This document shows positions 3,263 through 39,899 of a stretch of 64,000 bases of DNA, in pieces (within the stretch, counting starts at the first letter, position 1; the number at the start of each line of letters is the position of its first letter). The position numbers were made by a program, and so were the translations under genes. The notes below the pieces were generated by a model, which saw nothing but the letters and a program-made list of their open reading frames with translations, ran no database searches and was not told the DNA's origin. The DNA comes from Ceratodon purpureus (Eukaryota; Streptophyta; Bryopsida; Pseudoditrichales; Ditrichaceae): the NCBI GenBank assembly GCA_014871385.1, contig CM026427.1, positions 18,138,682-18,202,681 on the forward strand, given 5' to 3'.

Positions 3263-3396
3263 AAACCCAACAACCCACAAAGAGAACCCTAAAACGCACA
3301 AACAACCCAACAACCCAACATCATTGCAACCCAACAAGAAGAACGAAATCCCAACAAATCCCCGCATCGAGACGTCACAGGTGAAGGAGGACTCAC

Positions 3397-5171: not shown

Positions 5172-8100
5172 ATGGGGATGGTCTGTCTGTACGCCCAAGG
5201 CATGGGCATCCCTCTTAGGTTTCGCGTAGATGACGATGGTCTAGCTACAGTTTCCTCTCTTCGCCTGAGTCTTAGATTCCATTTCCGTGAGGATTCTATC
5301 AGTATAGAGGAGGAGATCTTTGATGACGTTACTGCCGAGGTTACCCACACCCTCGGGCAACCTTCAGTGAGAGATGAGAACAACATGTTGCAGTGGAGAC
5401 TCCTTCCTGGATCCTATAGAGTCTATGGTCTTACTGATTCTCTGATGGCTGCATCCACTGAGATCCTCACCCCCCGTCGCTCTTCTACTTGCACAATTCA
5501 GACTCCCTTACCTCGTGATGTCAAAGTCAAAGTCGAGCCTGGTACCGAGACTTCAGATGTAGAGAAACCTCCTCCGACCGTCATATCTCTCTCTTCTGAT
5601 GACGAAGTCAGTCCCGTCAAGTTGGTGCCTAAGGTCCACGCAGATGCTCCTCCTTCCAATGTGTCTCCTCCATTGTCCCAGGTCACAGTTAGCATTGTTC
5701 CGCTCCTTAAAGAGATTGCTAAGACGCGTGGGTCCAAAAACATTTTGAAGAAGATAGACTATTCCACTATTAGACACGAGAGAGTAGAGTACTTGCCTGC
5801 GAAGTTTGATGGTCCGGTTCTTTTTGAGTTGCCCCCAGCTGCTGCGGGATCCTCTAAGCTCGCCGCCAAGTCAATGCAGGGAATGGACAAACGATACGAC
5901 GGACACTTGTGGACCAAGACCATCACAACAAACATCAAAAACGACTTCGGACTCTCTTTTCGAAGTTCCACCTGCGTTGGATGGCTGCGCTGCATCAACA
6001 AGGAGTGTGACTTCCTTAAGTGTGTTCCCAAGATCTTTGAGGTTAACGAGACTGAGTTCGAAGGCTGTACCCTGCAAGCTTTTGTCATGGACCAGCCTCC
6101 TCCATCTGACTCCACGCTAATGTGCAAGGTATGTAAAGAACCTCCATCATGTGTAGGTACATGCGAGGCTAAGATTTATTACGTTGTGGGCAAACCGAAT
6201 CAGACTAGAGCTTGTATTCACATAGGAACACATGATCATCCAGTGAAAGTTGGAGACTACAGAGACTCTAAAGCAGAGATTAGTAGCTTAATAGAAGAGC
6301 AGGTAGAGATGAACAACAAAGCAACAAAGAGCGCCGTTGTCCTGGAGGCGAGCAAAGTCCTCATCGGGAGCTACCTGCTACAGCCCGAGGATGCACCACC
6401 GAGGAAGCTGACGATGGAGGAGCTCGTTCCTGTTCTGGATCGTTGCAAAGACATGGCGTCACCAAACATCCGCAACAAAGTCGCCACCTTCAAAAAATTC
6501 GTAAGGTACGGAATCATGGACGGTATCACCAAGCTCCGTGGTAACAGTCTCTGGGCGTATGTCCAGGAGAATAGGTTTCCTGGTCAGGGATCTATGCGTG
6601 ACAAAGTCTTCCTTTTCAAGATGTCAGAGGTCGGCCCGGGAAGTGGTGTCGACTTGGTCAGCCGAATGCAAGCTGGTGGCGACTTGGAGAACGCATGGAT
6701 CATGTTCGACCATGTAAAACGCGTCAAAGATTGGTCGACGATGGCGTGCCATGTGTACGACGCCACCTACTGCCGCGTGATGACAATCGCCATTTGCGAC
6801 ATGCAGTCCGAGGACACGGAGGCCCAGCTCGTCTTCTGGAAAAACCTGAACCTGGTTATGGAGATCAATGGCGTTGCAGCGCCGAACTTCAAGGGGTTCA
6901 TGGCGGATAACGCACAGGCGAATTGGAATGCAGTGCGAATCCTTTACGGCAATGGCAACAAAGAGGACCCAATGGAGGACCGGGAGAGGTCGTGCTTGTT
7001 CCACTGGACTCAGAACATGGTGGCGTATACGCAGAAGCACTTCCCCGAAGAACTCTCGGAACAGCACAAAAAGATGTGCACTCAGTACAAGAATGCGACC
7101 AGCATGGCAGAGGCGGAAACTCTGTACCACGCGTTGCGAGCATGGTGGGCATCCACCGGGGTCGTTGGCGAGAGCGGGCTCATCAAACTCGATCAGTGGC
7201 TATCATTCTGGCACCACCGCTTCCGCCAGTGGGGGGGATTCATGACCGAGGTATGATCTCTGCACTCTGTTTTGATGTTTTTGATACTCGTTTCCTAGCC
7301 CTAACCTACAAAACTCTAATCCGTGAATCTAACGGCACCTACTCTCAAATCTGCAGAAATTCACGAAAGAAGAACTCACAGAGATGCCCACCTGTAACCT
7401 CGCCGAAACAGTTCACAACAAGTGGCTCCAAGCTTCAGGAAACAACGGGAACGACCTGTACGTTGCTACCGTGGATGATTTCGTTCGGGCTTTTCTACAG
7501 GTTGTCAACTATTACCAGTTCCTCAAAGGTGACGTCGGCGGAACAGGACCATCCAAGAAGGAACTCAGGCTCCGGATGGCTGAACGCAACGCGAAGAAAT
7601 GGGGAAATCCTACACTGCTCGACAAGCCCATGCTCGATATGCCAGGCGCGGATGAGTTCTGCACCCGTCAGCCTATCATGCCTGGAGCGGAAGTCTTCGG
7701 TTCACAGAAGCGAAAAGCCGACGTCCTTATCGGAGCTGACGAGGAGTCTCATCGCCCGGACAAGACAAACTTCTCACGCCCAAGAGGCCCAAGACGTGCC
7801 GTCAGCGATCGCCCTATGCAGATGCCCGTCATTGTGGAAGACGACTCCGAACACGACACCGAGGTACAATGTACGCAACCTCCTGCCCAGGAAGTTGATT
7901 CCCCTTTACCTTCACCTGTGAACAAGGGCGGCATTTGCCATGTCAACGCGGTTGAAGAAACCAAGGTGGACGTGAAGGAGTGGCACATTTCGAGACTACA
8001 CAAACTTTCTGCGAAGTGCTGCTGGGCCCAAAGAGCTGAAACGAAGAAGAAGTGCACTGAGAGAATCGTCAGAGGGCCCCATTCCACAGCTGCACTGACC

Positions 8101-10478: not shown

Positions 10479-11585
10479 TCAAAATCTCCGCTCACCGCTC
10501 TCCGCTCTGCACTCTCCGCTCACATACAAGCTACCCTCCAACTGAAGCTCCAGCTGCTTCTTCTCACTCCGAAGTTTCGGGGCGTCCTTCAACAACTCCA
10601 CCTCTCGGATCACCTCCTCCGGTAAACAGCCTCCAAGGGACGTGCAGACTCTCCGAAACAGCGTCTCGATCCGATTGTAAGAGGCCTGCGCTCGATGAGT
10701 CTCCTCCCGAATCCTCCGGAATAGCTCAGTCGGAAATCCCCTCTCGGCACTGACCTCCCTCCGTTCCGTATCTCCCCGGGCCGTAGAAGGTTCCGCGTGC
10801 TGCGACGCAGCGCGTTCCGATCGTGACCTGGACTGCGCCCTAGTGGTGCCGGGGTTCGGAACGATCGTCGTATCGTCCTCCTGTTCCGTGGACGCTGTAT
10901 CCGAGGTTTCGCCCCGTGGATCGGCTTCCATTCCGGGCGGAATCTCTGAGAAGCTGAGGAAGTTCTTCGCCATCGTATACGTCTCTTCCTCCTTATTGCT
11001 CAGCAACTCATACGTCTTGTAAAGGTGGAAGAGGAAAGGGGAGATCGGGGTCGGCTTCTTTCCGATCGTTGGCACCATCTTCTGCACAACTTCCGCCATG
11101 AGTGCGGCCCAATTCACCGGACGTTCCCCCGTGTACGCTCCGAGGATGGTGTTCCCGACCGTAATGGTGACCTGTTCCGGTTTCAGCGGATACAGGATCG
11201 GAACGAGGAAGGCTAAGACCTGCCTCTGCCTCCTATCCTTGCAGGCATCTATCTCGTACCCATTATTCTTATGGATCTTTCCGTGAAACCTATCCTGCAC
11301 GTATCTATCCATCCGGGTCGCCCAAAGGAGCCCGGTCTGCTCGAAATCGTAAGCTGCCGCCCACTGTTCCGCATTCCACAGCGTGGGCTTGCCTCGGATC
11401 GTATTGTCCCACCTATTGTCCGGTCCTTCCAGGACCTCCCTCACCATCACCTCACTCTTCAGTAACCACGGCCGTGACAACAACCCCTCCCACCTCATCC
11501 GGGTGAGGTCAACGATCAGCTCTTCCATCTCCGATTCCCTCACCGGAGTACCGGGACTAAGGACTCTACACTGCACGTGCGACAT
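10479..11585 (-). CDS. Family-G retroelement ORF1-like protein (copy A)
   Basis: ATG at 11585 directly after the TG..CA LTR copy A; 368 codons, no internal stop. Residues about 30-205 hold the domain shared with 1-1824 and 36408-37032. Its core reads LAFLVPILYPLKPEQVTITV, then a GAYTGERPVNWA segment. After that come an acidic linker, a Ser/Arg-rich stretch and a coiled-coil-prone end. The last codons lie in short CTCCGCTC repeats, so the original C-terminus may be lost. Role unknown. Placement immediately after LTR and primer site suggests a gag-type or leader protein. The closest copy (copy B) keeps the same domain order, with SERA.S.HAEPSTARDD marking the linker. Confidence 0.6.
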   Translation of the reverse strand: MSHVQCRVLSPGTPVRESEMEELIVDLTRMRWEGLLSRPWLLKSEVMVREVLEGPDNRWDNTIRGKPTLWNAEQWAAAYDFEQTGLLWATRMDRYVQDRFHGKIHKNNGYEIDACKDRRQRQVLAFLVPILYPLKPEQVTITVGNTILGAYTGERPVNWAALMAEVVQKMVPTIGKKPTPISPFLFHLYKTYELLSNKEEETYTMAKNFLSFSEIPPGMEADPRGETSDTASTEQEDDTTIVPNPGTTRAQSRSRSERAASQHAEPSTARGDTERREVSAERGFPTELFRRIREETHRAQASYNRIETLFRRVCTSLGGCLPEEVIREVELLKDAPKLRSEKKQLELQLEGSLYVSGECRAESGERRF

Positions 11586-12110
11586 TGCTACGCCTTATTT
11601 CTCTCCCTCTACGATCCGACAGCAAGAAACCCGGCAATTTAACTGCCGGTGAATCGGAAAAGACAAAAACACCTCACCGCTCTTTCACTCTCTACTCCCA
11701 GTCCGCAAAAAGGAACTCCAAACCCTAACACCCTCGCTTATATACCCCAGGCATCATAAACGCTGCGGCGGCCCGTAATTGCAGCCGCCACCGTACCGGG
11801 CTAGACGCCTATCCGAGTCATGATGACTTCCGCGTCGATTCGGATCCTAGACGCGGTTACAGTAACGGTCAGTTCTCGGATCTTTGACCCGTTCCGTGTT
11901 TTCTCTTCCGAGTTTCCGGACTCAAGGTTCCGAGAATACTTCCTGCGTTAACTGTTTTAAGGTTTCTGGAGTATCCGGTTTGTGTTAACTCCTAATACAC
12001 CTAGTGTCTAGCTAGTTTTTACCTAATTAACCGAAAAAAATGAAAAATTAATGGAATACTTACTCCGGATGAGGCTCTTCCGGTTTATTCTGAGTTTCTC
12101 GGATCCCACA
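11586..12110 (-). mobile_element. Family-G LTR copy A
   Basis: Read on the minus strand, the 525-bp block starts TGTGGGATCCGAG at 12110 and ends GTAGCA at 11586. It aligns along its length, at very roughly 80% identity by eye, with 37033-37566. It contains a TATA box (TATATA near 11740) and, 15-25 bp further on, AAACCCTAA (telo-box). The start interrupts the copy B ORF1 reading frame, so this LTR inserted into, or recombined with, copy B. Confidence 0.65.
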
Positions 12111-12411
12111 ATTCCGCTCGTAAGTGGCCTGAGCGTGGTGGATCCCTTCCCGAAGTGAAAGTAGTCGATCAGCGGGAAAACCCCACTCAGAACTGGATGC
12201 CTTCCTCGCCATGTCATCTCGGGCCGTGGACGGTTCCGCGTGATGGGACGTAGCTCGTTCCGACCGCAACTTAGAATGGGCCTTCGATGGGGCAGCTTCC
12301 GGGATTACCTGCGCATCTGGTTTCCGCTCTTCCGTGGACTTCGTATCGGTGCCTTCTTCATGCTGCTCCTCCTCCGATCCTTCCGGTACCTTCTTAAAGT
12401 AGAGGAGATCC
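12111..12411 (-). pseudogene. Family-G ORF1 copy B, C-terminal part (split by Gy1)
   Basis: Continuation of the reading frame of 36408-37032 once Gy1 and one GATCC copy are removed. The codons run across the joined site without a shift and match copy A in the linker (SERATSHHAEPSTARDD). The frame is then cut by LTR copy A at 12110 and ends at 12060 inside that LTR. Confidence 0.7.
12407..12411. repeat. Target-site duplication of Gy1, left copy (GATCC)
   Basis: GATCC immediately before TGTTAAAGGG. An identical GATCC follows the right LTR at 36408-36412. A 5-bp duplication is typical for Ty3/gypsy integration. Confidence 0.9.
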
Positions 12412-13020
12412 TGTTAAAGGGATTTTTTGCCTTTTTACTAGAGCAGTATTGTAGGAGCAGGCACAGTAAAACTGCTTGGAGCAGTAACTAGTTAGTTACT
12501 GTCCATTTACTAGTCCCTGCATTTTTGGATGAAGTTTTGACAGTCGGATGTAATTCTGAACTGGATGAAAAATGGACATAGGAGGATGACGGCTAGGGTT
12601 TGGGGGGTAGTGAGGAGTGAGGGCATGGCGGCTCTCACTCTCTCTCACCCTCTCTCAACCTCTTGTGTTTTCAGAGGTATGGTTAGGAGTTAGGAGGGGT
12701 TAAGAGGTAGGAGAGGAGGATATACTGCTGTAGATCAGAGTTATGGGCAGTATGGTTGTACTTGGCTGAGAAGTAATGAGTAAAGACATGGCCTTTACAG
12801 AGCTGAGTTGAGTATTGAATGTTAGGGTTAGGGAGAATTGAATGAGGATGCTTTGCATTGATGATCAGATCAGGAGCAAGGAGCAGGATTCTGGTGTTAG
12901 CAGGATCATGTAGTAGTAGTAAGAAGAAGAAGGGTCAGTACTACATTTCTTTTCAGATTCCATTTGACTTAGTAGAAGTAACCAAGCTTTTTAAGGGTGA
13001 AGCTTAATCACCCTTTAACA
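12412..13020 (+). repeat. Gy1 5' LTR
   Basis: Starts TGTTAAAGGG and ends CCCTTTAACA, so the termini are inverted repeats of each other. Identical to 35799-36407 except for one base. It contains CTAGGGTTTGG and TTAGGGTTAGGG telo-box-like sequence and a CT-rich tract. Confidence 0.95.
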
Positions 13021-13983: not shown

Positions 13984-16677
13984 ATGGACAAAGAATACCC
14001 AGGGTGGGACAAGGAGGAGATAGCCAGGAGACAAGCAGCAGAACGGTTGGCAAGATACGAACTCAGAGAGCAGAGAGCAGCAGCAGAAGTAGGAAAACCA
14101 ATGGGAGGACAATTGAGTTCAGAAGAAAGTATAGCCAAAGGGAGAACCAGGGACCTAATTGACATGGACCTGGTAGGAGAAAATTCGAGCCAGGAGACAA
14201 TACTTGGAATAAGCAGGAGGACAGGGTCAGGAAGAGGAGAACCTGGCCCAAGCTTCAAGAATTGGCAGGAGGATGAGGAAGAAATTCGGAAGTATGAAGG
14301 ACATCCACTATCACCCAGGACCAGCAGGAGGGAATTCCCAAGGCCAGGTGAAGGAGACACACAGCATTGCTGGAACCCCCAGACCAGAATGGCATCAGCA
14401 TACGACCATTACCAGGAGGAGGAGAAGAAAGGAGGCAGCAGACCAGACACACCAAAACCAGGGGAAAAGACACCAGGTGATTTGGTGGAGACATTGGAAA
14501 CGCTGAAGAAGAAATTGGAAGAAGTTCACACTGGAGACAGAGTCCAGACAGGAGCAGCAGTATTGTCAGAGATGTACAAAACGGGTAAGCCAGCACAGGT
14601 GAATCCCAGGAGACCAGTGGTACATTTTGCACAAGAGCAGTTCCAAGGAATGGAGCTGGAGGAAGATGAGGAGGACAGAAGACAACTGGAGGAGTTAAAG
14701 GCTCGACAGCAAGCTAGAAGGCAGGCAGAAAGAGAACGAAGAAACCAGCAGGCAACAGAGGACCTGTACAGGAGGCAGATGGAGGAGCTAGGCCAGGCAG
14801 CCAGGTTCAGAGAGACAATGGAGGCTTGGGAAGAAAAGAATCGGGAGGAAATCAAACTGAAGGAAGCCATGAAGCTATGGCAGGAAACAAAGAGGCTTGA
14901 AGAGCAGGACCAGGAGAAGCAGAGACAGGAGGCTCTCAGAACCTGGCAGGAGACTCAAAGGAGAGAAGAGATGAAGCAGGCAGCTGAAAGAAAAGAAGCA
15001 ATGCAACAGGACTTGCTAAGACAGGAGGCTCTGCGATTATTACAAGAGGCACAGAGATTGGAGGACCAGAAGAAGAAGGAGGAAGAAATGAAAGAAGCTA
15101 CCCGGCAGGCGACCCTTTACAAATGGCAGGAGATATTGAGGGAAGAGAGCCAGAAACTCCAGGCCAAACCAAGGGCGGATCCGTGGGCAGCATATGACCA
15201 TTCAGTGGTTCAGGGGGACAGACCAGGCCAGCTGAGGGAAGCAGAATTGATGGGAGCACCTTACACTACATCTGCTGTACCAGGAAGGCCAGGAACAGAC
15301 TATTTCCCAACTTCGAGGACTCGGGTGAGCCCAACAGGAGGAGGCGGGGTACAGTCTACCTATGTAGATCACCTTACAGGTGACGAGTACAGACCAGAAG
15401 TCAACAGAACTGCATACTGGCCAAGCGGAGGAGCAGAAGCCGGAGCAGGAGTTCCTGACACAGGAACAGGATATAGAAGACCAGCGGAGATAATGAGAGG
15501 GATGCCATATGATACTAGGCCACCTGCGGGAATAGGAGTACCAGGGGATACAGCGGACAGCAGTTATCCAGTGAGGCATGGTCCACCAGCCTATACACCA
15601 GCTGCTCGACCTAGAGTACCACCAGTGACAGGACCAGTCCTTGTGGCTCAGAGGAAGCCGCTGACCTACACGAAGTACAAGGAAGGGACGAATCCAGATG
15701 CCCATATACGGCAGTTTGAGAGGACTCTATGGCACAACGGAGAAACTGATGAGCAGGTGATAATCAACCTGATGGGTACCACTTTGCTAGACAAAGTTGG
15801 TGCATGGTATGAGAATTTCCTGGAGAACCATGTCTACTGCTCATGGGAGGATGTTAAAGCTGCTTTCAGGAGGAGGTACAGAGACCAGACTACTGACGAG
15901 GCAGTATACGGGGAATTGAAGTCCTTCAAACAGGGGGAAAGAGAGAAGGTGCAGGACTACTATGATCGGTTTATGACATTAATTAAATGTCTACAATCTG
16001 ATCCAGGAGAAGGGTTCAGGATCACTAACTTTCGAGCAGGACTGCTGGAGTATATCAAGATCACCACCAGTGTGGCACCAGTCAGGAGTTTGACAGAGTT
16101 GGTGGATGCAGCCCTGAGATGTGAGGAGAACTGCACTGATTCTAGTGGTAAACCCACTAAGATCGAGGTGAAGAAAGTAGAGACCAGCAGTAAGGCAGCC
16201 ACAGTGACCAGGAAGGAACCAGACCAGGAGGCTCCAAGGAAAGCCTGTGGTATTTGGAAGAAGCTGGTCCATGAGGATAAGAACTGTTGGTACAACCCAG
16301 CTAACCAGAGAGGGTCAGGTGCGAAGAAGGAAGGGGAAGAACATGTTGGTGTCAATGAGGTCTCTGCTTCTAAACCAGCAGGAACCTACAGTTACAACCA
16401 AGGATACCAGCGACCACCTAATCCCAGGGCAGGCAGCAGCCAACAAAGGAGTTATGGTGATCAACCACCAAGTTGTTTCTTGTGTGGAGGAGTAGATCAC
16501 AGAAGCTGGAACTGCCCCAAGAAGGCACAATGGGACCAGTTTTTGGCAGACCAAGAGAAGACCAACAAAAAGCAGGATCACCATGTCAGTAATGTGGAGA
16601 TTGAGCTAATAGAAGAACCTGAAGAGTCAGTGGGGGTAGCTACCATGACCAGAGCCCAGAGGGTGAGAGTACACTAG
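13984..16677 (+). CDS. gag: Gy1 gag (polyprotein 5' part, cut by the T-SET insertion)
   Basis: Structural protein that packages element RNA in the cytoplasm. ATG 13984; 897 codons. Residues about 220-395 are a long Glu/Arg/Gln-rich coiled coil with WQE repeats. The retrotransposon gag (capsid) domain lies at about 558-716. A zinc knuckle CFLCGGVDHRSWNC (CX2CX4HX4C) lies near 831. An upstream knuckle (about 753-767) has Trp where the second Cys should be (codon 16255-16257). The matching Gy2 knuckle keeps the Cys. The last codons and the TAG at 16675-16677 belong to the nested transposon. In the uninterrupted element the frame continues directly into 27889 onward, so gag and pol were one frame. 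Confidence 0.9.
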   Translation: MDKEYPGWDKEEIARRQAAERLARYELREQRAAAEVGKPMGGQLSSEESIAKGRTRDLIDMDLVGENSSQETILGISRRTGSGRGEPGPSFKNWQEDEEEIRKYEGHPLSPRTSRREFPRPGEGDTQHCWNPQTRMASAYDHYQEEEKKGGSRPDTPKPGEKTPGDLVETLETLKKKLEEVHTGDRVQTGAAVLSEMYKTGKPAQVNPRRPVVHFAQEQFQGMELEEDEEDRRQLEELKARQQARRQAERERRNQQATEDLYRRQMEELGQAARFRETMEAWEEKNREEIKLKEAMKLWQETKRLEEQDQEKQRQEALRTWQETQRREEMKQAAERKEAMQQDLLRQEALRLLQEAQRLEDQKKKEEEMKEATRQATLYKWQEILREESQKLQAKPRADPWAAYDHSVVQGDRPGQLREAELMGAPYTTSAVPGRPGTDYFPTSRTRVSPTGGGGVQSTYVDHLTGDEYRPEVNRTAYWPSGGAEAGAGVPDTGTGYRRPAEIMRGMPYDTRPPAGIGVPGDTADSSYPVRHGPPAYTPAARPRVPPVTGPVLVAQRKPLTYTKYKEGTNPDAHIRQFERTLWHNGETDEQVIINLMGTTLLDKVGAWYENFLENHVYCSWEDVKAAFRRRYRDQTTDEAVYGELKSFKQGEREKVQDYYDRFMTLIKCLQSDPGEGFRITNFRAGLLEYIKITTSVAPVRSLTELVDAALRCEENCTDSSGKPTKIEVKKVETSSKAATVTRKEPDQEAPRKACGIWKKLVHEDKNCWYNPANQRGSGAKKEGEEHVGVNEVSASKPAGTYSYNQGYQRPPNPRAGSSQQRSYGDQPPSCFLCGGVDHRSWNCPKKAQWDQFLADQEKTNKKQDHHVSNVEIELIEEPEESVGVATMTRAQRVRVH
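16669..16672. repeat. Target-site duplication of T-SET, left copy (GTAC)
   Basis: GTAC just before the left inverted end; the same GTAC follows the right end at 27889-27892. Deleting one copy restores the gag-pol frame. Because GTAC is palindromic, a TA-only duplication with one base added to each inverted end is an equally good reading. Confidence 0.75.
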
Positions 16678-17554
16678 ACCCTTGTACTTTTGTATGTCAC
16701 AGTGAAAAAATGGCAAAGTACTAGAATTTGTACTTTGAATTACTCAATATTGGAGGTCGTTTTCTGTTGATTTGTTGTGTCTCCTATATTATACAATACT
16801 TAAGGGGGACTAATTCGATAGTAGCTGAGAAAAAAAAAACTAGCACATACATATAATTGATACTTTTGCACAGCCTTAGGCGGATGTCACAAAGTACAAA
16901 AGTATCAGAAAAGTACAAAGTTCATGCGTCATTGAAACTCGAATGGAAGCTGCCGCTTGTTGGAGAATACCTGACAGGGAGCCCGGTAAGGTGGGAAATG
17001 AATTGCCATGGTAGCGTGATTAAAATTTCGTAGATCTAGCAAAGAAGTAACGGTTTTTTTGCAGCGAAAAAGTTGTGCAAAAGTTTTCTTTTTTCTTAAT
17101 TTCTTGGCAGAATCTGGTAGAGCAAGAACCAATCCAGAATGGCCAAGCGTCGAATCTGCCAAAAAACGCTCTATCGGATATATCTTTTTTTATTGGTGGC
17201 TGCGCGGGCTCTTGTACTCGTAGTCCTTAAAGTACTCTTTGTACTACCACGCAAATACGTGGCATTCCACATTGCCTGTCAGCGAGTTCATCGGACGCCG
17301 AGCCTGAATTAGTTAGTTACTGTGGCGCATCATTATGCGTCGGGGCGGCGCCTCACTCTCCATCAAACTTCAGTCCTCTCATGAGATAGTGGAGGGGGGT
17401 CTCCTTGAATCCTTCCTTCTGATTTTATTTTTGTGTCCATACTTCTGTTGTCCATAGCTGGTGGAGAAGTTCATGTCGACTTCTTCTGTGATTTTTCCTT
17501 CTGCATTTCTCCAGGTTGAAGACTTTGCAAAAGTTTTCTTCGAAGGGTCTGCTC
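16673..17554. other. T-SET left subterminal region
   Basis: Non-coding; GTAC lies in ACTTTTGTAC/AAGTACAAA-type contexts at about ten places (for example 16684, 16717, 16911, 17212, 17231, 17240). A CCAGG acceptor-like site at 17511-17514 precedes the transposase ATG, so a 5' untranslated exon is possible. Confidence 0.5.
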
Positions 17555-20500
17555 ATGGGAAATACCGCAAAGAGGCGGAGGGTACGAGAGGGACTGAGTC
17601 GTCCAGGTCCAGCTGAACGTGCTGCCGAGGTCGAAGCCCTTGAGGCTCAAAGACTAGTCACCGCTAGTGCAGCGCGAGAGAGGAAAACCAGGCAGAGAGT
17701 ACGTGATAGGGAGAGGGTAGCAGAGTCTCAAGTTCTAGCTCAGGATACGGCGGAGCAAGCTGCAGCTCAGTCTTTTACAGTTAGAGAGAATAGTAGGATT
17801 TCCTTGCGAATTTGTCAAGCCATTGTTCAAGAGTTGAAACAGTGTCCTAATCTGGCTGGGCGGAGAGATGTCATGGAAAGGGTTCTTCGTCATTCTACAG
17901 TTTCTCCTTTTTTGCCTGATTGTTATCACCGTCCACAAGAAGCCCGAGCTAGGGACGCGTTCATCGACAACTTTAAGAATGAGCTTCGTCTAGTTAAGGT
18001 TGCAAACTCTCATGATCTGTTAGCTCGGAAATCAGCACTCTTAGATGCCGCTGTTAGTTCTGGCTCCAATGTCCGAGTGGGTGCGTTGTCTAGAGTTTTG
18101 GACACAACTAAAGAGAGTATTAGCATTGCTTTGAGAAGGAGGTTGCCAGAGGATGATTTTCAGGGGTTACTTCCGAAGTTGCGTTTGTCTCGGCAGCCAA
18201 GGGCTGGTCTTTCGGAATATGTCAAAGAGTGCATACTCCGTTGGTGGGAGATTCAGACCAAAGTTTCTCCTAACAAGAAGGACATTGTTAGGCACAGAGT
18301 TGGGCGCAAACTTTGGCTTCCACCTCATCCTACTCATTATCTCTGTGAGACGCAAGTAAGTTTGCCTATACAATCTCTCTAACTCTGTTTTAAAAATTGG
18401 CAATGTCGAGTACGCAGAGTGCTCTAACTTCTGCTGTATTCACTAGAATGTACTGTTCCTCCACCTTTGTTGTCGAAGAGTACATTACGTTGCAATTGTC
18501 TATGCTATGTAGTTTCAGTACCTTGCCTCGGAGTACACTTGTATTCTTTTGGAAGAGAACAATCATATTCGTACTTTTGATTGTGTTAGAGTACAGCCAT
18601 TTACAAGTTCAAGGTATTCATAGTTCCGATGTGTACTCACAGTGTAGTAGTCCTACTGAATGTAAGAAGCTCATGTACACTTTGTATCCCTTCCGAACTA
18701 TGTATCATGGGATGCTACTTTCATAAGTCTACTAGCGTACCATTTGTATTACATTTCTACTTCAAAGTAGTTTAAGTAATTTCAAAGTAAACAAAGTACT
18801 CGATGTGTACTATGATGTGGTTATCTATTGGTATATGTAGATTATTAGTACTTTTAGTATCCGGGATTGTAATTAAGTACTAACAGTTAGCAATGTGTGC
18901 TATGCTCTGATTTTTTTACAGACTTCGTATTTCCAGCGTTTCCTAGAAGTCCACCCTGAATGCAGTGTTCGGCAGAGGGCATTCGAGAGGTTGAAGCCGT
19001 GGTGGGTAAAGAAATTAAAAGAGAGGAATACATGTTGCTGCATCTACCATGTTGAGATGGACATGATGAAGGCTGGATTAATCAATCTGAGGGACAAGCT
19101 GAGGGGTTTTCATACCTCAACAAATTGCACTTGTCTATGTCTAGTGTGTGCAAACGAAGAAGAAGGGACTGGTTGCCATGCTCACGTCTCTATTTTCAAA
19201 CACATTACAGCTATGTGGGAGGCTTGTTTATGTCCAAAGGGAGAGTTTGATAGATGGCATAGGTTGGAGTGCCTTATGGGTGATTGTACACAGTGTGGCT
19301 TTCATTTATTCAAGGTCTGTCCATTAGAGTTACAAGATTCTCAGTTGTTCCTACTAAAGTGGAAGTGCTTTGAGTACTACGAGGTTGGAGTGCATGCAGA
19401 AACAGGGCAGCCAAAGAAAAGACTGAGAGAGGCTTTCAAGGAGACGCCAGTCCATGAGTTCCTCTCGTACATGGAGAAAACAGTGACTACTTTTGTGACT
19501 CACAATTTCAGAGCGAGGTGGCAAGATGAGCAATGTCAGCTCATGATGAAGAATATCCCAGAAGGAGTTCTTGTGTCCCATATAGACTATGCTGAAAATT
19601 ATACCTTTGCAATTCAGAACGAAGTGCAAAGCATGTATTACTTCAGCACTAGTGTTACCATTCTTGTGCATATTTCGATGTGGAGGGAAGGTGACGATAT
19701 CATGAAGCAAACGCATTATTACATTTCGGATGACAAGGCGCATGATTCTGCATTTGTGCAACATTGTTTAATGTTGCATTGGGACTGGGTGGTTGATGCT
19801 GGACTTTCCATAGAGGAGCATTGGGTATTCAGTGACGGCTGTAGTTCGCAGTTCAAGTGTGCCACAGCCATGTACTTTGTTGGGCGGTATCCGTTCCTCA
19901 CTGGGGGGTGCTTGATGCGGTGGAATTTTTTTGAATCAGCTCACGGGAAGGGGGAGTGGGATGGTGCAGGTGCAGTGGTGAAAAGGGCGTTGAGGGCCGA
20001 ACAGATTCGAAACCCCCTGAGACCGCTTCAGAATGCTGGGCACGTTGTTGATTTTTTGAAAGAAAACTACTCTGATCGTGTTTCCAGCACATACGCTCAG
20101 TCAACAACTGACCCAATCTCTCGCGTCTTCTGGAACATAGGCGAATTTGAAGTAGATCACAGAGATAGTAGTATTAAATGTCGCACTTTACCTGGCTCTA
20201 AGAATTTGCATTCGGTTATGGGTTTCTCTGTGTCTGACCCTACTCTTCTTAGAACTCGTGAACTCTCTTGCTTTTGCATCCCCTGTGTTGATGGTAATTG
20301 GAATAACAGTGAAAACTCGTCTCATGTGCAGGAGTGGAAGGTCCAGCGTCTACAGCCGCTTAGTACTGGCGATGTAGCAAACCAGATTGAAGTGCTTGAT
20401 GACGATGCCAATTGGATTCATGATGGAACTTCCGTGGAGATAGGTGATTTGGTGTCTGTCGGTGACAATTTCATGATCCCAGCAGAGAGTGAAAACGAAG

Positions 20501-20832
20501 ACGGAGTGGACTACTACATACTGCAGTGTCAACGTACAAAGTTTGTATTGCAGGAGGGTTTGTCATGTCCATGGGGCGGTGTTTTTTCTGCAGGGGACAA
20601 GGTGATCCGAGCTAAGTACTATAAGAAGTATGGAAGAGGTGATAAGACATACGTGTTTTGTGATAGGGCAGTTGATGCACATATAGATGCTCATCTGGTC
20701 AGAGCTTGCAAGTTCCCAATGGTTCTTGCAGCCCATAGAGTTAAAGGTAGTCCAGTGTACAAGATTACAGCTGAGTCAAAGAGGATTTGTGAGGATGCGT
20801 TGAGGGACTGGTGGGCATTTAACGAAGAGTAG
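17555..20832 (+). CDS. T-SET transposase, DDE type, animal-like family
   Basis: Two exons, 17555-18355 and 18922-20832. The 566-bp intron (GTAAGT donor; T7ACAG acceptor) joins CETQ to TSYFQRF in phase, giving about 903 residues. The start is the first ATG of the frame. Residues 1-85 are Arg/Ala/Glu-rich and probably bind DNA. The segment KVSPNKKDIVRHRVG precedes a Cys/His-rich part (CCCIYHVEM, CTCLCLVCANEEEGTGCHAH). Candidate catalytic motifs are HIDYAENYTF (about 486), SDGCSSQFK (about 570) and WNFFESAHGKGEWDGAG (about 600). This set is familiar to me from uncharacterised transposase-like proteins of invertebrates, not from MULE, hAT or CACTA. No stop or frameshift is visible. The superfamily is unnamed here; the mechanism is inferred from the motif order and its place between inverted ends. 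Confidence 0.8.
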
Positions 20833-21023
20833 AAGTCCAGAACATAGCATCAAAAATGTATTTCCTATAGCTTAATACAAACTCTGAATGCCATTGTCGT
20901 AAGTTCAGCCGATGATATAATATGTCCAATATGTCCATTGTGTACAATATTCAAAATATGTACAAATTGTCTTTACAGAAATGTATCACATGTACAGTGT
21001 GTACAGTATGTGCTTGGTGTACA
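20833..21023. other. Convergent gene spacer, GTAC-rich
   Basis: The 191-bp tail-to-tail spacer holds a run of GTAC copies in contexts TGTACA and GTGTAC (20940-21040). It probably contains both polyadenylation regions. Confidence 0.6.
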
Positions 21024-24000
21024 CTAGGTAGAACAAGTACTTTGTAAGTCTACTTTTCCCCTGCATAAAGAACTCTCACACTTGCATTCAAAGTACGGCA
21101 AATCAGGGTCTTCTCTGCTGAAGTCAGTTCCGTAATCCCAGGATAGTTCCTCCAATGGCTGAATCTTGCGTTTTGTGAAGAATGCCAGCTGGTAGAAGCT
21201 CCGGTCTAACCTTCCGACTAGGACTGGGACATCTACCAAGTTCGAATCCTCGCACCTGTAGACATAGGAAACAGGGGCATTAGAAGTATGGAGAATACGT
21301 ATAAACCGACTGAGAGCATACGGTGCAAATAGGAGTGGGACCCACCGGTGATTGAGGAATCGGGCCACATTTCCGAACCGGGTTGCATCAAGGCACAAAG
21401 CTGAGTTATCGTTCAACACCCGTTCAGCGGCCCAGTCCGCATCAATCTGTAAGCTGTAAGAGGAGCCCCCCTTCACTGCCCGGTTCCTAAGCATTTGCTC
21501 GGCATTGGTCAGAATCTCCCCCGTCATCTCAAATACAAACGCCCCTCTAGGAATAGGTTCTCTTGCCCGGATACCCCAACCCATACGGGCTGTACGAAAA
21601 ACCTCTACACCGTATCTCATGCCCTGCTGTACAACACGGTTCCCACAATCGATACGACATCCACACTTTGCATTACACTCAGAAATGAAGGCCCAGGACT
21701 TGTGTGCCTCACATGTGACAACACTCTCAATACGGCGTAGCTTAGTACAGTAGCACTGTAGAGTACTAGTACAGTCGTAGGCTTCATTTATGCGTCGTTG
21801 GAGAAAAGAATCCTTGAGGAATCCGCCTGCCTTGTATGCAAATCTGCCACCGTTGGCGGTTGTTGCACACGTACATGGACACGTGGCGGTCAAGCAGTCC
21901 CCTGATGGGCAAGAACAGAATGATCCCTTGCCTAGACTGGACAGCGTTGGGTTCACAATTGCCTGGTCGTAAACAATGCTCTTGTTGATGTATTGAAAAC
22001 TAGGAAAAGAAACATCAGAGAACACAAGAGGGACTGGGGTCTTCTCTAGTCCCCTAGACAAATCTTCAACCATATAATTGGACTGGCCCTGGTAAGTTTT
22101 CCAACCCAACAGCCCACATTCCCACAATTGTTATGCGACAATGTCAATGTATTGAAGTCAACCCCGCAATTGAGGTTACAATACAAAGCTGGCCACAAGT
22201 GAACTACATTCTGTAAACCCTCCACAAAATCTACCAAAATTGACAACGACGTTCCATCTCCAGCGCTGCTACTTCCGGCCCTTGGACGCCGCCCCACCTA
22301 CCTTGCGTTTCTTCTCTCCTTTCCTCTTTCGCGCGCTCCCGGGAGATGCCTCATCAGCACCTTCTACAGGTTCTGGAAGTTCCTTCGCACGTGCCCGGGT
22401 GATCCTCTCAGTCGCAATGTGGGTTCTCGGTTCTACTTCCTCTCCACCAGCAAGAGCCTCATGAAACAATTGTGTCACGCTCTTATCCACGCAGTGCAGA
22501 TTTTCAATTGCAACCTCTTCACCGTGGTCTCTTTCTCTCTCGCTCGGAACAGTCTGCTGCGGCCCTATGACTGGTTGCTTGACCCTCTTGCCGCGGCTCT
22601 CTACTCCCCTCTGGACAGCACCTGTAATGGAAACCTATGATTAGTAATATGAACTGAAATCTAAAAATCCATATAAATCTTTTATAAATCTATCCAGACT
22701 ACGCATATTAAAAAACAGTAAAGGAGTTTCACCTGTGGGTTCTATGGCTGGACTTTCTGTGTGGCTAACGTCGTGTTTCCTCCCGGGTAGACACTGAGAT
22801 CCGGGAATCGGTTGAGTGGGTGGAGATGTAACCTCCATCTGTGTGCACACCACCTGCAGAGCCTCAACAGCATCATCTCTGTCCAGAATTTGTAGGTGTC
22901 GGATAGGAGATTTGGACGCTGCATTCTCCCTGGGTTCCACTTGATTGGGGACCTCTGCAGTTACAGGGCTGATGAACTCAGGGTCGTAGGACTTGAATAC
23001 CGGCAACACTCCCGGAGAAGTTTTCGCAGGTTGTACCCCTCCACCCGAGCCTGTTGATCTGGTTGTCCCGGAACTGGAGGGGAGGGTGGGCATCTTCTCT
23101 TCATTATCTTCATCGCTTGAAGAGTCGTCGTCAGAGTCCAGCTCCGGCTCCGAAGGTCCTACTTTTCGACCACCTTCTCCCTCCAAGCATTCGAAGACAA
23201 CTGGATCTTCCCTCTTCCGTTTGGCGCCACTCGCAGTCTGCTTCGACAAGATCCTGGAAGGGCCATCCTGCAACAGCACTGGCAACTCAGTGTCTTCGGA
23301 GACGTCCGGATCAGGTAAGTAAACCTGGCTCGATCTCTCTTCCACCACGATAGGCAGCGTTACAGCAGGCGCATGGAAGGAAAAAGTCGAAGACTCTGCA
23401 AACAACCATTCAATCTTCTAGGTTAAATTTAATTGCAAAGTACAAACTCTGGTTACAAGAATCAAAAACGGACTTCGTAGTACCTCTAACAGGACTCTAA
23501 TGTACATTGTGTACTAATATTAGAGTGTGGGTACAAACAATAGTCTCGGCGTTATACAGTAGGTACATCATGTTCAAAGGGGTAGACTAAGTACAATACA
23601 TTTGTACCTAGACTCGTCAAATTAGTACACCGGCATAGTGGCCTAATTGCAGCATTCACAAAGTACTATACATTTAGGACTCTAAAAAGGAAAGATGAAA
23701 GTATGTACAAAGATTTAGTACACTGCAGATCCATCTCCTATAGACAGTGTATCACCAACTACCATAGTGTACTCAGTATTTCACACATACTACAGAGCAT
23801 AGCACGCCCAAATGGACTGTAACGAAGATAAGTACATTCACAGTGACTTACCGCAACATCATAGTTTAATTCGAGAATTAAGTACATCTAGATTCTGCTA
23901 AGTACTCTACACGCTAGCAAATTCCACAGCATAGTACCTAAACTATACAATATACACGGATATTAGAGACAATGACCCATTTGTACTTAGCAAAACATTC

Positions 24001-25744
24001 GCACATCATCAACAATTAACATACCGTTTGTCGGCAACATCGACTTTGCACAGTGTGCCCTTGCTTGGAGAACTCTGACCCTCTCCTCTAACACGCCTAG
24101 CTTTCTCCCTTGATCACGCATTTCCGACGATGGATGTCCCCACCCGAAGCTATTGTACCAGTCCGGATGGGGAACCGCTCCGCAGCCCTTGGCCAAGCAC
24201 GCACCGCAATTCACGAATACAACAGAAGCACAGAATGGGTGGTAAAGGTGCCTACAACTAGATAGAACAACGTCATTGCATGGGAAAGGAAATAGGCACA
24301 AACAGCAAGCTGTAATTGCGATAGAACCCGAATCTCTAGAACTTCCAACAACGGGCTCATCAACTGTCTCCGTGTACACCATTGGGCGTGGCCAGATGGA
24401 GGCGTTGCTCTTCCCTCGCTTCAGCTGGAAGTTTTCGGCGGATAATGCATCGAATAACTTCTGCCTCCCCTCAAGCATCGCTGCCACACCCTCCAGCTCC
24501 AATTCGGCTGCTTTCTGTTCAGCCAAGTCAACCCGCATCTGAGCCTCCTCCTCCTCCAGCTGCTCTTGAATCCCTTCCATCTTGATCTTCTCCCGAACTG
24601 AGCTCTGACCCTCCGACTCTAGCACGTCGATTCTGACCCTTTTCTGCTGAATTTGATGCTTACAGCTATCCACCAAGCAGGTCCTCTGCTTGCACTTCGA
24701 CCTCGCTGCCTCGGTCCTCTCCAGACAGTGGACCTTCTTCACAGCAAATGCCTTGAGTTCTAAGTGCAACACCCCCATCAATCCCTCTAACTCCTTCAAC
24801 CTCTCCTGCACGAGTCCCTTCCTCCATCCCACCAATCCCTCACTCCGATCCTGCACACTCCCCTGCACACAAACCCCAGAACCCATCCCACTTTCGAAAT
24901 TCCCATCACAATCCCCTGTCTCCCCAAGACAAGATCCCAAACCCGGTTCCAGTCCCTCCTTCTTCGCAAGCAGTGACTTCCTCCCACTGTCGAAGGTCCC
25001 TCCCCCACGATCCCCATCCGTCCCGGGCTCCAATTTGATGCTCCGCCACTCCTTTCCCCGAACATCGACGGGACCCTTCCCTTCAAATGTCTTCCTCAAA
25101 GCTAGGAGTTTAGAAAGGTCCTGTTTGTACCTCGACCGCTGGCGCTCATTCGTCTCTGCACCGAAAGCGCACCAATCAACGAACCCAGCACCCTCCTCGT
25201 ATTCAAAAGTTACACCTTCCGCAAACTTCACCTTGACGTTGTTAGGGATTTCTCCCGGTCCATGCTGGTACAGGATGGGATGTAGGAATTTCACCCGTGC
25301 CACAACCTCCGGTACCTTGCAATTCAACCAGCAAAATCCGGCACGGCCTCCATCTCCGTAACGACCCCCAAACAACTTCTTCACAGCATCGGCCCGCACG
25401 GTATTCTTTCGGAAACGGTGGGGGTTGTCACCTTCTAGAGGAAGACCGTACTCTCTGTGGAAATCCTCCCTGGTCAATGTGCGAGGGGGCGCCTTCAAGC
25501 GCCGTATCTCAGCCTCAACATCCTCCACCGACTGTATTTTCTTGACAGACCTCCCAGCCTTCTTGCGATTCGACGCAGGGACCGCCTCGTCGTTGCGGAG
25601 CACGTCGGTGTTGCCTCCTTCGTCGTCGGTGCACGCCTCCGTCGCGGACTCCTCCCTCCTGCTCGAAATGCCGGACTTCGACTGCACCAGTCTTCTCCCT
25701 CCAGTCCCAGCCGACGGTGTCCGCGCCGTCAGGCTCTCCTCCAT
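21024..25744 (-). CDS. Transposon-borne RING-H2/SET histone methyltransferase-like protein, five exons
   Basis: Exons 25744-24025, 23395-22733, 22621-22302, 22088-21346 and 21255-21024. All introns are GT-AG and all phases agree, giving about 1225 residues. Residues about 90-215: a domain like family-G ORF1 (RVKFLHPILYQHGPGEI). About 310-445: coiled coil. About 478-515: RING-H2 finger (Cx2C, CRHLYHPFC, Cx2C), typical of E3 ubiquitin ligases. Then an acidic disordered part and a Lys/Arg-rich part. About 902 to the end: pre-SET Cys cluster (CSCPSGDC; ECNAKCGC..DCGNRVVQQG), SET (GWGIRA, GNVARFLNH, EELSWDYG) and post-SET (CKCESSLC), the SUV39/SUVH order that methylates histone H3 Lys9. After splicing NHSC reads NHRC. 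No SRA domain is seen. No stop or shift is visible. The nuclear role on the element's own chromatin is inference. Confidence 0.8.
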
Positions 25745-27888
25745 GGCGACCCTAAACCCTAACACCAAAATGTTGCTACGGCATTCCCCAACAACTGAAA
25801 CCTCCTAACTCTGACCCTCACACTCACTCTGATCCTAAACCCTGCGAATGGAGCTCACGGTAAAACCCTCCCAGACGAACCCACAACACCCGCAGCAACG
25901 CATAGCACACAGCAAATTCAAAACTAAGATTCACGAACCCCCCGCCAAACTGAGGTGCGAGACGACTACCGGCGGTCACCGGTCACCGGATGTAACAACC
26001 TGCGGTCACCGGTTCTCTGCGTTAGCAGCCAATGCAGCAACTGGTGACCACCGGTTACCATTCGAAATGACACCTACCTCAAGAACTGAAATTAATAACT
26101 CTCAAATGCTCCGTGACTTCTAGGATTTATGATATCTACTTGCGGGGCTATTCGCAGTTAACAAACTAGGCAAAAACGTACATGAAGTGGACAGCCCAAA
26201 TTAAATTTTTTTTAAATCAAAAATTAAACAATTAAAAAAATAATTATAACAAGCAAATAACAAAGAAATAGATAATCCACAAGGTGCAAACATATAAGTA
26301 TAAAACAAAAAATATAAAGGAAGTGGATAATGCACAAGGTGCACTAGGAGGTCGGAATAAAATATAAAGAATGGATGAAGAAGAGAGAGATGAAAATTGA
26401 ATCATTTGATTGAAAAATAAATTATGTATAAACCCAAAAATAAAAAATAAAGTAAAATAAAATAAAAAAGTAGAAGAAAGAATTCATAGGAAGATGGAAT
26501 AGGATTTCTAGAGAAAGATTGAGCAGAGAAGGACAACTAAATAAGTAGATAAATAAAGGTAGGACCCTAAAAAAAAATTGAATGGATGAATAAAAAAAAA
26601 TGTGAAAATTTAATCAATAGATTAGAAACAAGAAAGAAGGAAAATAATGAAAAGGAGAACTCACTAGGTGAGTAAATGGTAAATTCAGTGAAATGGTATA
26701 GGATGTGACGAAAAAAATTGAACAATAAAGGAAAATTAAAAAAAATAAAAAATAAAGGTAGGACCAAAAAAAATAAATAAATAAATGAGAGAATGATTAG
26801 AATTTGAAAAAATAAAAAATATAAAAATATAAAAAATATTGGACAAATAAAAAAAAATAAAAAAAAGTAGGACCAAAAAAAAAAAAAATGAATAAATGAG
26901 AGAATGAATAGAACTTGAAGAAAACAAAACAAAAAACAGAAGAAAAAAACAAACAAACAAACGAACGAAATAAGGACGAAATATATGGAAATGAAATGGA
27001 GGTGAGTAAAACATAGATGTACGAAGATGGTGTACGATGTCTAGATAAGGATTGAACAATAAAGATCAATTAACTAACTAAATAAAGATAGGACTCCAAA
27101 ATAATATTGAATGAATGGATGAAGAAGACAAAAATGAAAATTGACTCATTACATTAGAACTTAAAAAAAGTGCAAGTGGCGAGATGTTTGTTGACTTTGA
27201 AACACTTTTGATAATATAATATATTTGAATTCCTATATCTATCTTTTGTAAAATGTCAAGGTCTGCACGATCAAGCCTACAAGAAACCCCTCATGCATAC
27301 CATGACCACTATACCTAGGTTTAATCTACCCAATACCATGTCTTCTATCCCAAATGAACCCTTTTAAAATTCAATGATCAAGTAAGACCCTAAAGTCTAC
27401 ACCCTAAATTTACAAGTTCAATATGGAGACCAAAATTCTAATTACATTCAAATTTTCATCACATTAGCACACCATATACCTCTTTCTCATGTAATATTCA
27501 TCCAAAATAAATATAAATTCCACTTAACCATAGCTCTAGGCACATAAACAATTAAAGATACCAAGTTCTACATCTGAATCCCTCGTCGCAAGGAAGATCC
27601 ACATCACAATGTCATTCACATTGGATGCTGCAGCCTAATTATAAACAGCCACCTTGACACCGTCCACTTTGTCCAAAAAATCCTGTACACGATGCTTCCA
27701 GCCAGTCTGTCCAAGTGACGCAGACGTCCTCCCATTGGCGGATCCAGATCCGACGATGCTCGTGGCCCGAACCCTATCCCTTTATCCGACGGCCAATGTT
27801 GACCAGGAATTAGTACTCCCGATAGAATAAAGTACTTTGGGGTACAATTGGTACAACAGGTTTTTGCCAAAAGTGACATGGGTCTAGC
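25745..27888. other. T-SET right non-coding region
   Basis: 25974-26062 holds several GGTCACCGG/GGTNACC copies 230-320 bp upstream of the SET gene ATG. 26180-27170 is A-rich degenerate repeat (GAATGAATGAAGAA-like, AATAAA runs). 27600-27888 is more complex and ends in the inverted terminus, with GTAC copies at 27811, 27832, 27842 and 27851. No gene is supported. Confidence 0.5.
25974..26062. promoter_or_regulatory. GGTCACCGG cluster upstream of the RING/SET gene
   Basis: Within 90 bp there are GGTCACCGGTCACCGG, then GGTCACCGG, GGTGACC and GGTTACC: repeated near-palindromic GGTNACC words. They lie about 230-320 bp before the ATG at 25744, on the upstream side of that minus-strand gene. A binding site for a dimeric factor is possible; no further evidence. 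Confidence 0.35.
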
Positions 27889-27892
27889 GTAC
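27889..27892. repeat. Target-site duplication of T-SET, right copy (GTAC)
   Basis: Pairs with 16669-16672. Confidence 0.75.
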
Positions 27893-35798: not shown

Positions 35799-36407
35799 TG
35801 TTAAAGGGATTTTTTGCCTTTTTACTAGAGCAGTACTGTAGGAGCAGGCACAGTAAAACTGCTTGGAGCAGTAACTAGTTAGTTACTGTCCATTTACTAG
35901 TCCCTGCATTTTTGGATGAAGTTTTGACAGTCGGATGTAATTCTGAACTGGATGAAAAATGGACATAGGAGGATGACGGCTAGGGTTTGGGGGGTAGTGA
36001 GGAGTGAGGGCATGGCGGCTCTCACTCTCTCTCACCCTCTCTCAACCTCTTGTGTTTTCAGAGGTATGGTTAGGAGTTAGGAGGGGTTAAGAGGTAGGAG
36101 AGGAGGATATACTGCTGTAGATCAGAGTTATGGGCAGTATGGTTGTACTTGGCTGAGAAGTAATGAGTAAAGACATGGCCTTTACAGAGCTGAGTTGAGT
36201 ATTGAATGTTAGGGTTAGGGAGAATTGAATGAGGATGCTTTGCATTGATGATCAGATCAGGAGCAAGGAGCAGGATTCTGGTGTTAGCAGGATCATGTAG
36301 TAGTAGTAAGAAGAAGAAGGGTCAGTACTACATTTCTTTTCAGATTCCATTTGACTTAGTAGAAGTAACCAAGCTTTTTAAGGGTGAAGCTTAATCACCC
36401 TTTAACA
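35799..36407 (+). repeat. Gy1 3' LTR
   Basis: 609 bp, TGTTAAAGGG to CCCTTTAACA; differs from the 5' LTR only at 35836 as far as I can see. Confidence 0.95.
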
Positions 36408-36412
36408 GATCC
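36408..36412. repeat. Target-site duplication of Gy1, right copy (GATCC)
   Basis: Same five bases as 12407-12411. Confidence 0.9.
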
Positions 36413-37032
36413 TTCGTCACCCTGTAGTCCTCCTCCTCCTTGTCCATCAGCAAGCCACCTGCATGGTAGAGATGGTAAAGGAAAGGGGTAATCGGAGTTG
36501 GCTTCTTTCCGACTCCGGCCAGCAACTTCTGCGCTGTATCCGATACGAGTTGGGCCCAGTTTACGGGACGCTCACCCGTATAGGCTCCAAAGATAGTGTT
36601 CCCAACCGTGATGGTGACTTGCTCTGGTTTCAACGGATATAGAATCGGAACGAGGAAGGCTAAGACATATCTCTCTCTCCGATTCTTGCACGCGTCTACC
36701 ACATATCCATTGTTCTTATGGATCTTTCTTTGGAACCTATCGTGCACGTACTTATCTCCAACCGTATCCCAACCGTATCCCTCCTGAACGAAATCGTAAG
36801 TGGCCGCCCACATTTCCGCGGTCCACTGAGTTGGATGACTTTGGATCAAATTATCCCATCTATTATCTAGCGCGTCTACAATTTATCTCACCATCTCCTC
36901 ATCTCTTAGCAACCAGGGTTGTGAGAGCAAACTCTGGCACCTCATCCAAGTGAGATCCTCTACCTGTTCCTTTATCTCACTATCGGTCCTCGATACTGCG
37001 GGGCTAAGAACTTTAAGTTGAATTGGCGCCAT
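36408..37032 (-). pseudogene. Family-G ORF1 copy B, N-terminal part (split by Gy1)
   Basis: ATG 37032-37030 overlaps the putative primer site just after LTR copy B. The frame matches copy A from the first residues and keeps the LAFLVPILYPLKPEQVTITV core and the GAYTGERPVNWA motif. A TAA at 36885-36883 interrupts it near codon 50. At 36408 the frame enters the Gy1 target site and resumes at 12411. Broken three times: TAA, the Gy1 insertion, and LTR copy A. Confidence 0.75.
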
Positions 37033-37566
37033 TGCTACGTCTCACTCCTCTCCCTTTAGGAGCCGACAACAAGAAACCCGGCAATCCAACAGCCAGTGAA
37101 TCGGAAAAGACAAAAACACCTTACCACTCTTTCACTCTCTACTCACAGTCTGCAAAAAAGAACTCCAAACCCTAACACTCTAGCATATATACTCAGAGAA
37201 TCATTAACGCCAAGGCGGCATGTAATTGCAGCCGCTACCATACCGGACCAAGCGTTATCCGATCATGGTGACCCCCGCGTCGAATCGGATCCTACACGCG
37301 ATTACGGTAACGGTCAACTCTCTGAACATTCCCTCGATCCGAGTTCTCCATCCGAGTTTTTGCTTCCGAGTTCCAAGATGTGGATCCGAGAACACCGCTT
37401 GTATTAAGTGATTTAAGGATCCTGGAGCATCCGGTTCTGACTAACTCTTAATACGGATAGTGTCCAGCTTATTTTTACCTAATTAACCAAAAAAAATGAA
37501 AAATTAATTGAATCCTAACTTCGGTTGGGGATTATCCAGTTTATTCTGAGTTTCTCGGATCCCACA
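37033..37566 (-). mobile_element. Family-G LTR copy B
   Basis: 534 bp on the minus strand, TGTGGGATCC to GTAGCA. It is preceded by a polypurine-like GAAAATGGGG tract with TAA before the LTR (37567-37580), and followed by A and TGGCGCC, a primer-site-like start. So it can serve as 3' LTR of the integrase fragment upstream and as 5' LTR of ORF1 copy B, as in a tandem formed by LTR recombination. TATA box near 37184-37193; AAACCCTAA close by. Confidence 0.7.
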
Positions 37567-39666: not shown

Positions 39667-39899
39667 TGCTGCACTTGATAGATCACCCGGAAAAACTTCA
39701 AAAAATCGGGGTAACAAGTCCTCAAGAGAACTAGAGCCTCCAAAGAAGCTCCAATTCAACACACTTCTGAACGCCGACGTTCACCATGCAACAGATACAC
39801 ACGTATATTAGTGCAACTAGTAGCACATGGAGTACAATTCAGAAGTGTAATGCCAACTTCCAGGAGGGGTCTTTTATACTCGTCCCAAGAAATGGCAGG

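Follow-up and report, generated by a model that had tools for sequence, protein, structure and literature searches.

A nested 11.2-kb DNA transposon of Ceratodon purpureus with a putative SUVR-type SET gene convergent to its transposase gene

Described elements with chromatin genes and the Ceratodon locus

Methylation of histone H3 at lysine 9 (H3K9) is a tool that hosts use against transposons. According to the passage on them in Kojima 2025 (PMC12730594), which cites Kojima and Jurka 2014, HarbingerS and MuDR transposons of Phytophthora contain a SET histone lysine methyltransferase. Here we describe an 11.2-kb DNA transposon in a 64,000-nucleotide stretch of the Ceratodon purpureus genome (assembly GCA_014871385.1, contig CM026427.1, positions 18,138,682 to 18,202,681 of the forward strand; hereafter the window), in which a SET-domain gene likewise lies beside the transposase gene. 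The element is set apart from the Phytophthora transposons by description: its transposase is by Pfam neither Harbinger nor MuDR, and its SET domain is SUVR-like and follows a long N-terminal part. Duplications made by MuDR/MULE elements are 8 to 9 bp long, whereas at most four bases are duplicated here. As SET cargo is already cited in Phytophthora transposons, such cargo is not new. A sequence-only reading of this DNA had held that no plant element of this make-up was described; our literature search of open-licence PMC papers found no plant transposon with a SET gene, and the claim stands to that extent, with an oomycete precedent for the cargo itself.

Sola transposons offer a second comparison. 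Their features include a DDD triad, a 4-bp duplication, terminal inverted repeats of at least 11 bp, and lengths of mostly 2 to 9 kb with some above 15 kb, and they are known from a moss (PMC10741241); Sola2 is treated in PMC3627910. Compared by description only, the Ceratodon element resembles them in its D-D-D triad, its short variable ends (~20 bp), and its length; its GTAC flanks fit a 4-bp and a TA duplication alike. It differs in its cargo, as the passages on Sola mention no SET gene. In PMC10045372, there is no occurrence of GTAC or Sola.

Other transposable elements are linked to chromatin in different ways. As the passages on VANDAL21 of Arabidopsis describe (PMC5735166), its protein VANC also acts on the chromatin of its own family and is associated with dense short noncoding motifs, but it causes DNA methylation loss, and the motif link here is limited to an excess of GTAC. 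Retrotransposons of Symbiodinium and Klebsormidium carry DNA methyltransferases (DNMTs), those of Klebsormidium being under purifying selection, in the part of that report on these elements (PMC5890265). These too place a silencing-type chromatin enzyme on a transposable element, and one of the hosts is a charophyte, but the elements are retrotransposons and the enzymes methylate DNA. A SET domain and a transposase stand side by side in SETMAR as well, which accounts of that gene present as a single host fusion with Hsmar1 inserted downstream. In Ceratodon, two convergent genes lie in a mobile element, which rules out a fusion of the SETMAR kind.

We consider it probable, though well short of certain, that the locus is an autonomous cut-and-paste transposon, Sola-like in several features, which combines a DDD transposase with an accessory SUVR-type SET chromatin protein as true cargo that would modify the element's own copies.

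A transposon nested in a young retroelement

The stretch from 16673 to 27888 is confirmed as a DNA transposon, at the coordinates that the sequence-only reading had given it. It lies between two copies of GTAC, and its ends form inverted repeats of ~20 bp that are equal apart from a difference at the outermost base and, further in, a single mismatch and a single indel, with the terminal pattern CTAGACCC[T/A]TGT. At this single site examined, the same letters fit a 4-bp GTAC duplication or a TA duplication, in which case the element ends C...G.

The interrupted host element is a Gypsy-like retroelement with matches to gag, reverse transcriptase, RNase H, and integrase zinc-binding domains. Its long terminal repeats (LTRs), flanked by GATCC, differ by 1 mismatch in 609 bp, which bears out the single-base difference reported earlier; a longer alignment, with 4 mismatches in 617 bp, takes in 8 bases beyond the LTR. 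When the flanks of the transposon were rejoined with one GTAC, the gag-pol frame, read from its gag start codon at 13984, stayed free of stops as far as base 28311. Nine join offsets were compared: the three in-frame joins (the GTAC join and two others) gave no stops, and the six out-of-frame joins gave 6 or 7. Taken alone, the frame test thus had a one-in-three chance of passing, but together with the matching duplication and the inverted ends it is strong. Since the transposon interrupts the gag-pol frame of a young retroelement, it is the younger of the two. The recent, nested insertion proposed from the letters is therefore supported by the GTAC copies, the rejoined open frame, and the near-equal LTRs.

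Chance inverted ends are ruled out by the equal GTAC copies, the matching ends, and the open frame across the empty site. It could also be argued that chance or rearrangement placed terminal repeats on either side of a transposase gene and a SET gene of the host, without forming a mobile unit, and the finding of one copy only fits such a composite locus. However, the 11.2 kb split one retroelement frame between equal GTAC copies, after the arrival of a retroelement whose LTRs differ by one mismatch, and so entered as a unit or grew from one that did; we regard a composite locus as highly improbable. The element DNA (query 16677-27884) had no blastn match in the remaining window, and tblastn with the transposase and SET proteins against the same DNA returned a single row, at 6732-6842 (E 0.081).

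The transposase gene encodes 903 amino acids in an open frame over two exons. D231, D314, and D356 (numbering of the open reading frame [ORF] 18895-20829) are invariant in all 19 aligned sequences. Position 354 is not the third acid, because 11 of the 19 have E there and 8 have P. A Klebsormidium transposase and the plant SUVR relatives of the SET part would fit a source in the green lineage. The intact DDE transposase claimed earlier thus keeps its open frame, and its acidic triad is D-D-D. Pfam gave no match above cut-off for this protein. Harbinger-type Pfam matches were absent from all 19 members up to E 1, a range in which HMMER filters drop most matches above ~0.1; one member had a weak MuDR-related match (E 0.13), and the window transposase had none. 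A PDB sequence search with the transposase profile found nothing at E <= 1. Scans of viral contigs with the transposase and SET alignments yielded 14 and 16 pattern stretches, respectively, none of them confirmed. The terminal pattern occurred in 4 viral stretches, 3 of which were one same sequence, and none resembled the element by blastn or tblastn; a scan of genome contigs gave 101 stretches, with none confirmed.

Two further observations concern repeats. Direct repeats at 10965-12115 and 36412-37571, 74 to 82% identical, flank the young retroelement and perhaps belong to an older nested element. The right part of the transposon contains an A-rich low-complexity stretch (26160-27180) with diverged internal repeats.

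The SET gene and its relatives

The SET gene runs on the minus strand from 25744 to 21024, and its five predicted exons encode 1225 amino acids without a stop, in line with the earlier description of a convergent, undamaged-looking SET gene between the ends. All five introns of the two genes are GT-AG, and those of the SET gene are in matching phase. With the 90-bp last intron spliced out, the Pfam SET match scored 67.2 instead of 57.7 bits and the best PDB match 125.5 instead of 106.2 bits, with human EHMT2 the best structure both times; a gene model using the 367-amino-acid ORF unspliced was dropped, since it retains this intron. NHR or NHK is present in 26 of 30 family rows, of which 24 end 0 to 29 residues later and 2 read through. 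Because most rows stop so soon, the intron after NHR is common to the SET family.

As an unspliced ORF, the SET region matched the Pfam domains SET (1.7e-15) and Pre-SET (1.6e-10); the post-SET cysteines align to EHMT2. The spliced site reads NHRCEDSNLVDVPV. It contains the histidine and cysteine of NHRC, which the source passage on the family describes as essential for catalysis, and the tyrosine of WDYG. NHRC is shared by the window and 15 of 16 host-type SUVR rows; WDY occurs in 13 of these 16 and in the animal SETDB2 row. Plant SUVR1/2/4 proteins have the same pre-SET/SET/post-SET order, NHRC, and W before the catalytic DY. They differ in their WIYLD domain, whose Pfam model, PF10440, found nothing up to E 10 in the 1225-amino-acid protein; that protein has a long N-terminal part with a RING-like finger instead. 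SUVH proteins are set apart by the SRA domain, which had no match in the same protein. Judged by sequence, the SET part is SUVR1/2/4-like (an H3K9 methyltransferase class) and not canonical SUV39; canonical SUV39 or SUVH was rejected on the missing SRA match, NHRC, and a tree that had no SUVH rows. Of the SUV39-type gene first proposed, the SET domain with its pre-SET and post-SET parts stands, the class has changed, and the domain turns out to be the C-terminal part of a much longer predicted protein.

The tree comprised 52 rows, namely 51 SET hits and the window, with no SUVH rows and with group labels set by hand: 16 host-type (12 named plant or alga, 3 unassigned, and 1 transcriptome entry), 4 animal-like (1 of them unassigned), and 31 others, which may include host genes. 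The window grouped with 30 of the 31 others (support 89/92), and the 16 host-type SUVR rows formed a separate group (84/98) that the window group adjoins without being nested inside it. A long-branch warning applies to P0060, P0064, P0066, and P0071. Checked against the possibility of a single-copy host gene, the window thus sits apart from the host-type rows.

Relatives of the SET region are 50 to 83% identical to it. In five hand-chosen relatives whose ORFs read into the intron (P0021-P0025), the exon is 76 to 86% identical to the window, compared with 4 to 12 of 17 to 21 residues in the adjoining intron (Fisher p 0.0025 to 1.6e-5). The SET exon is thus more conserved than the intron in these close relatives, a hint of selection on the exon.

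Exon 1 of the SET protein had 15 hits with 40 to 90% identity. Its structure model is poor (mean predicted local distance difference test score, 53.1) but includes two long confident helices, at 313-385 and 391-450. Weak matches to zf-RING_16 occurred in 9 of 16 exon 1 members (best E 0.00099) and to zf-RING_2 in 8 of 16; exon 1 of the window had neither at E <= 1. The region 23990-25768 (minus strand) weakly resembles a retroelement accessory ORF at 10482-11585 (minus strand; E 0.009, 25% identity over 113 columns).

These features bear on whether the protein is an enzyme at all. It might instead be a scaffold that binds remodellers or histones without methylating them, with the RING-like N-terminal part doing the work. 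SUVR2 provides the model, as the source passage has it contributing to silencing although it lacks both methyltransferase activity and its conserved catalytic sites, and the weak RING matches would suit such a role. The window protein, however, keeps the H and C of NHRC and the WDYG tyrosine, and a scaffold appears improbable.

Contig sizes hint that the parts of the element travel together. In source lgn, the longest contigs of transposase hit P0001 and SET hit P0027 are both 5267 bases long, and those of N-terminal hit P0082 and SET hit P0030 share a size of 8592. In a test with jittered lengths, whose input was 18 of 20 transposase, 31 of 51 SET, and all 15 N-terminal hits, at least one equal-size coincidence arose in 1.8% and 2.1% of runs within the same source and in 6.0% and 5.4% across sources.

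A passive passenger, that is, a host SUVR gene or a fused piece caught once between the ends and without function for the element, would account for the single copy with known ends and for introns kept as in captured genomic DNA. Host-gene capture by DNA transposons is common. Set against this, all 1225 codons are open, relatives keep both the SET region and the N-terminal exon, the exon is more conserved than the intron, and the equal contig sizes suggest that the parts stay together. We therefore hold a passenger to be unlikely.

The least secure point of the gene model is the join of exons 3 and 4, because the residues LLGW, encoded directly before exon 4, are found again in divergent relatives (LGW in P0033; LLGW in P0035 and P0039), so that the acceptor may lie elsewhere. 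Two genes may then be present, one made up of exons 1 to 3 and encoding a coiled-coil/RING-like protein, the other giving the SET part a transcript of its own; without the third splice, exon 3 indeed hits a stop shortly after. A GT-AG intron in matching phase nevertheless joins exons 3 and 4. The pair P0082 and P0030 speaks for neighbourhood at best and not for one gene. On balance, we find two genes a tentative but somewhat unlikely alternative.

GTAC clusters, the proposed role of the SET protein, and other features

GTAC counts in seven noncoding stretches of the element and five stretches outside it were compared with 300 dinucleotide shuffles of each. Four of the seven exceeded all 300 shuffles: the left end (8 versus a mean of 1.89), the transposase intron (14 versus 3.88; shuffle maximum, 10), the gap between the genes (5 versus 1.04), and SET intron 1 (18 versus 5.05; maximum, 12). 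Bases flanking 45 GTAC sites, on both strands, were A or T in 80 of 90 cases. The excess may represent an address, as for VANC, a protein not known to have a SET domain, or may be a habit of base composition in this genome.

In the reading we prefer, the SET gene would be true cargo, retained for the effect of its protein on the chromatin of the element's copies. Recruitment would most likely proceed via the GTAC clusters in noncoding element DNA, read by the SET protein or the transposase. The net effect would be to damp the element's own copies or else to replace the host's silencing marks H3K9me1/me2 with H3K9me3. Arabidopsis SUVR4 is described, in the passage on it, as active and as converting H3K9me1 to H3K9me3 via its ubiquitin-binding WIYLD domain, and a 2026 paper describes H3K9me3 in its title as a permissive mark of Arabidopsis. 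A more specific version, in which GTAC clusters in the introns and ends guide the element's own H3K9 methyltransferase to its copies and a SUVR4-like conversion of H3K9me1/me2 to H3K9me3 lets them escape the host silencing loop, strikes us as doubtful.

Several results weigh against the preferred reading. The element is known here from one copy with defined ends. Three of its seven noncoding stretches lack a clear GTAC excess (8 versus 4.00 at the right end and none in two short introns), and all five outside stretches also lie above their means, by factors of 1.3 to 2.1 (for example, 53 versus 31.1 and 20 versus 9.7). Foldseek with the transposase found no structures at E <= 0.001, its best rows being NurA; a second structural comparison speaks only to the families listed in it. 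The Pre-SET match of the ORF was not listed for the spliced whole protein. Support for both main groups of the tree is moderate, below the starred level. The five exon-intron comparisons involve close kin with 17 to 21 intron residues each and are not ratios of nonsynonymous to synonymous substitution rates (dN/dS). For the contig sizes, an equal length across sources has a chance of 0.060, and the exon 1 and SET lists did share one such cross-source value (2787). Finally, the source passages report no in vitro methyltransferase activity for Arabidopsis SUVR1, SUVR2, and SUVR5, and weak activity for SUVR4.

Table 1. Coordinates of the transposon, its genes, and the interrupted retroelement in the window
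Feature	Position	Strand	Remarks
Whole DNA transposon	16673..27888	.	11,216 bp, between GTAC copies
Target site duplication GTAC, left copy	16669..16672	.	
Target site duplication GTAC, right copy	27889..27892	.	
Left terminal inverted repeat ACTAGACCCTTGTACTTTTG	16673..16692	+	Alignment with right end
Right terminal inverted repeat GCTAGACCCATGTCACTTTTG, read inward	27868..27888	-	Alignment with left end
Transposase exon 1, ATG at 17555	17555..18355	+	Weak HTH_Tnp_ISL3 match, E 0.0047, below Pfam cut-off
Transposase intron, GT-AG	18356..18921	+	14 GTAC
Transposase exon 2, RNase H-like core	18922..20832	+	Invariant D-D-D
SET-protein exon 1 (predicted)	24025..25744	-	Conserved N-terminal domain, long helices (putative coiled coil), RING-like finger
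SET-protein intron 1	23396..24024	-	18 GTAC
SET-protein exon 2 (predicted)	22733..23395	-	
SET-protein exon 3 (predicted)	22302..22621	-	Join to exon 4 is least certain part of gene model
SET-protein exon 4 (predicted)	21346..22088	-	Pre-SET and first part of SET, to NHR
SET-protein exon 5 (predicted)	21024..21255	-	Rest of SET (C of NHRC, WDYG) and post-SET cysteines
Left LTR of interrupted retroelement	12412..13020	+	LTR alignment
Right LTR of interrupted retroelement	35799..36407	+	LTR alignment

Elsewhere in the window, ORF 38365-39762 (minus strand) matches DUF659 (E 2.2e-35), a domain that we take to be one of hAT transposases. Adjoining ORFs lie at 41795-43030 and 43075-44127 (minus strand); the first matches DUF7869 (E 5.5e-43), and its GHTHDDID and DNKN motifs look like those of another transposase type. 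ORF 57354-58142 (plus strand) has an NIF (CTD-phosphatase-like) domain (E 3.1e-14). There are also a 128-bp tandem repeat at 2547-3314, a 47-bp array, also an inverted repeat, at 44399-44766, and an AT-rich region with long inverted arms at 45985-48383. Rfam and tRNA scans of the window each returned no hits.

An open, apparently conserved gene for a putative writer of the H3K9 class on a transposon makes it testable whether such an element uses its protein to hide, to limit itself, or to disarm the host. The known cases of chromatin proteins on transposable elements, which include oomycete SET, charophyte and dinoflagellate DNMT, fungal TET/JBP, and VANC, would be joined by a SUVR-type enzyme whose N-terminal part is new.
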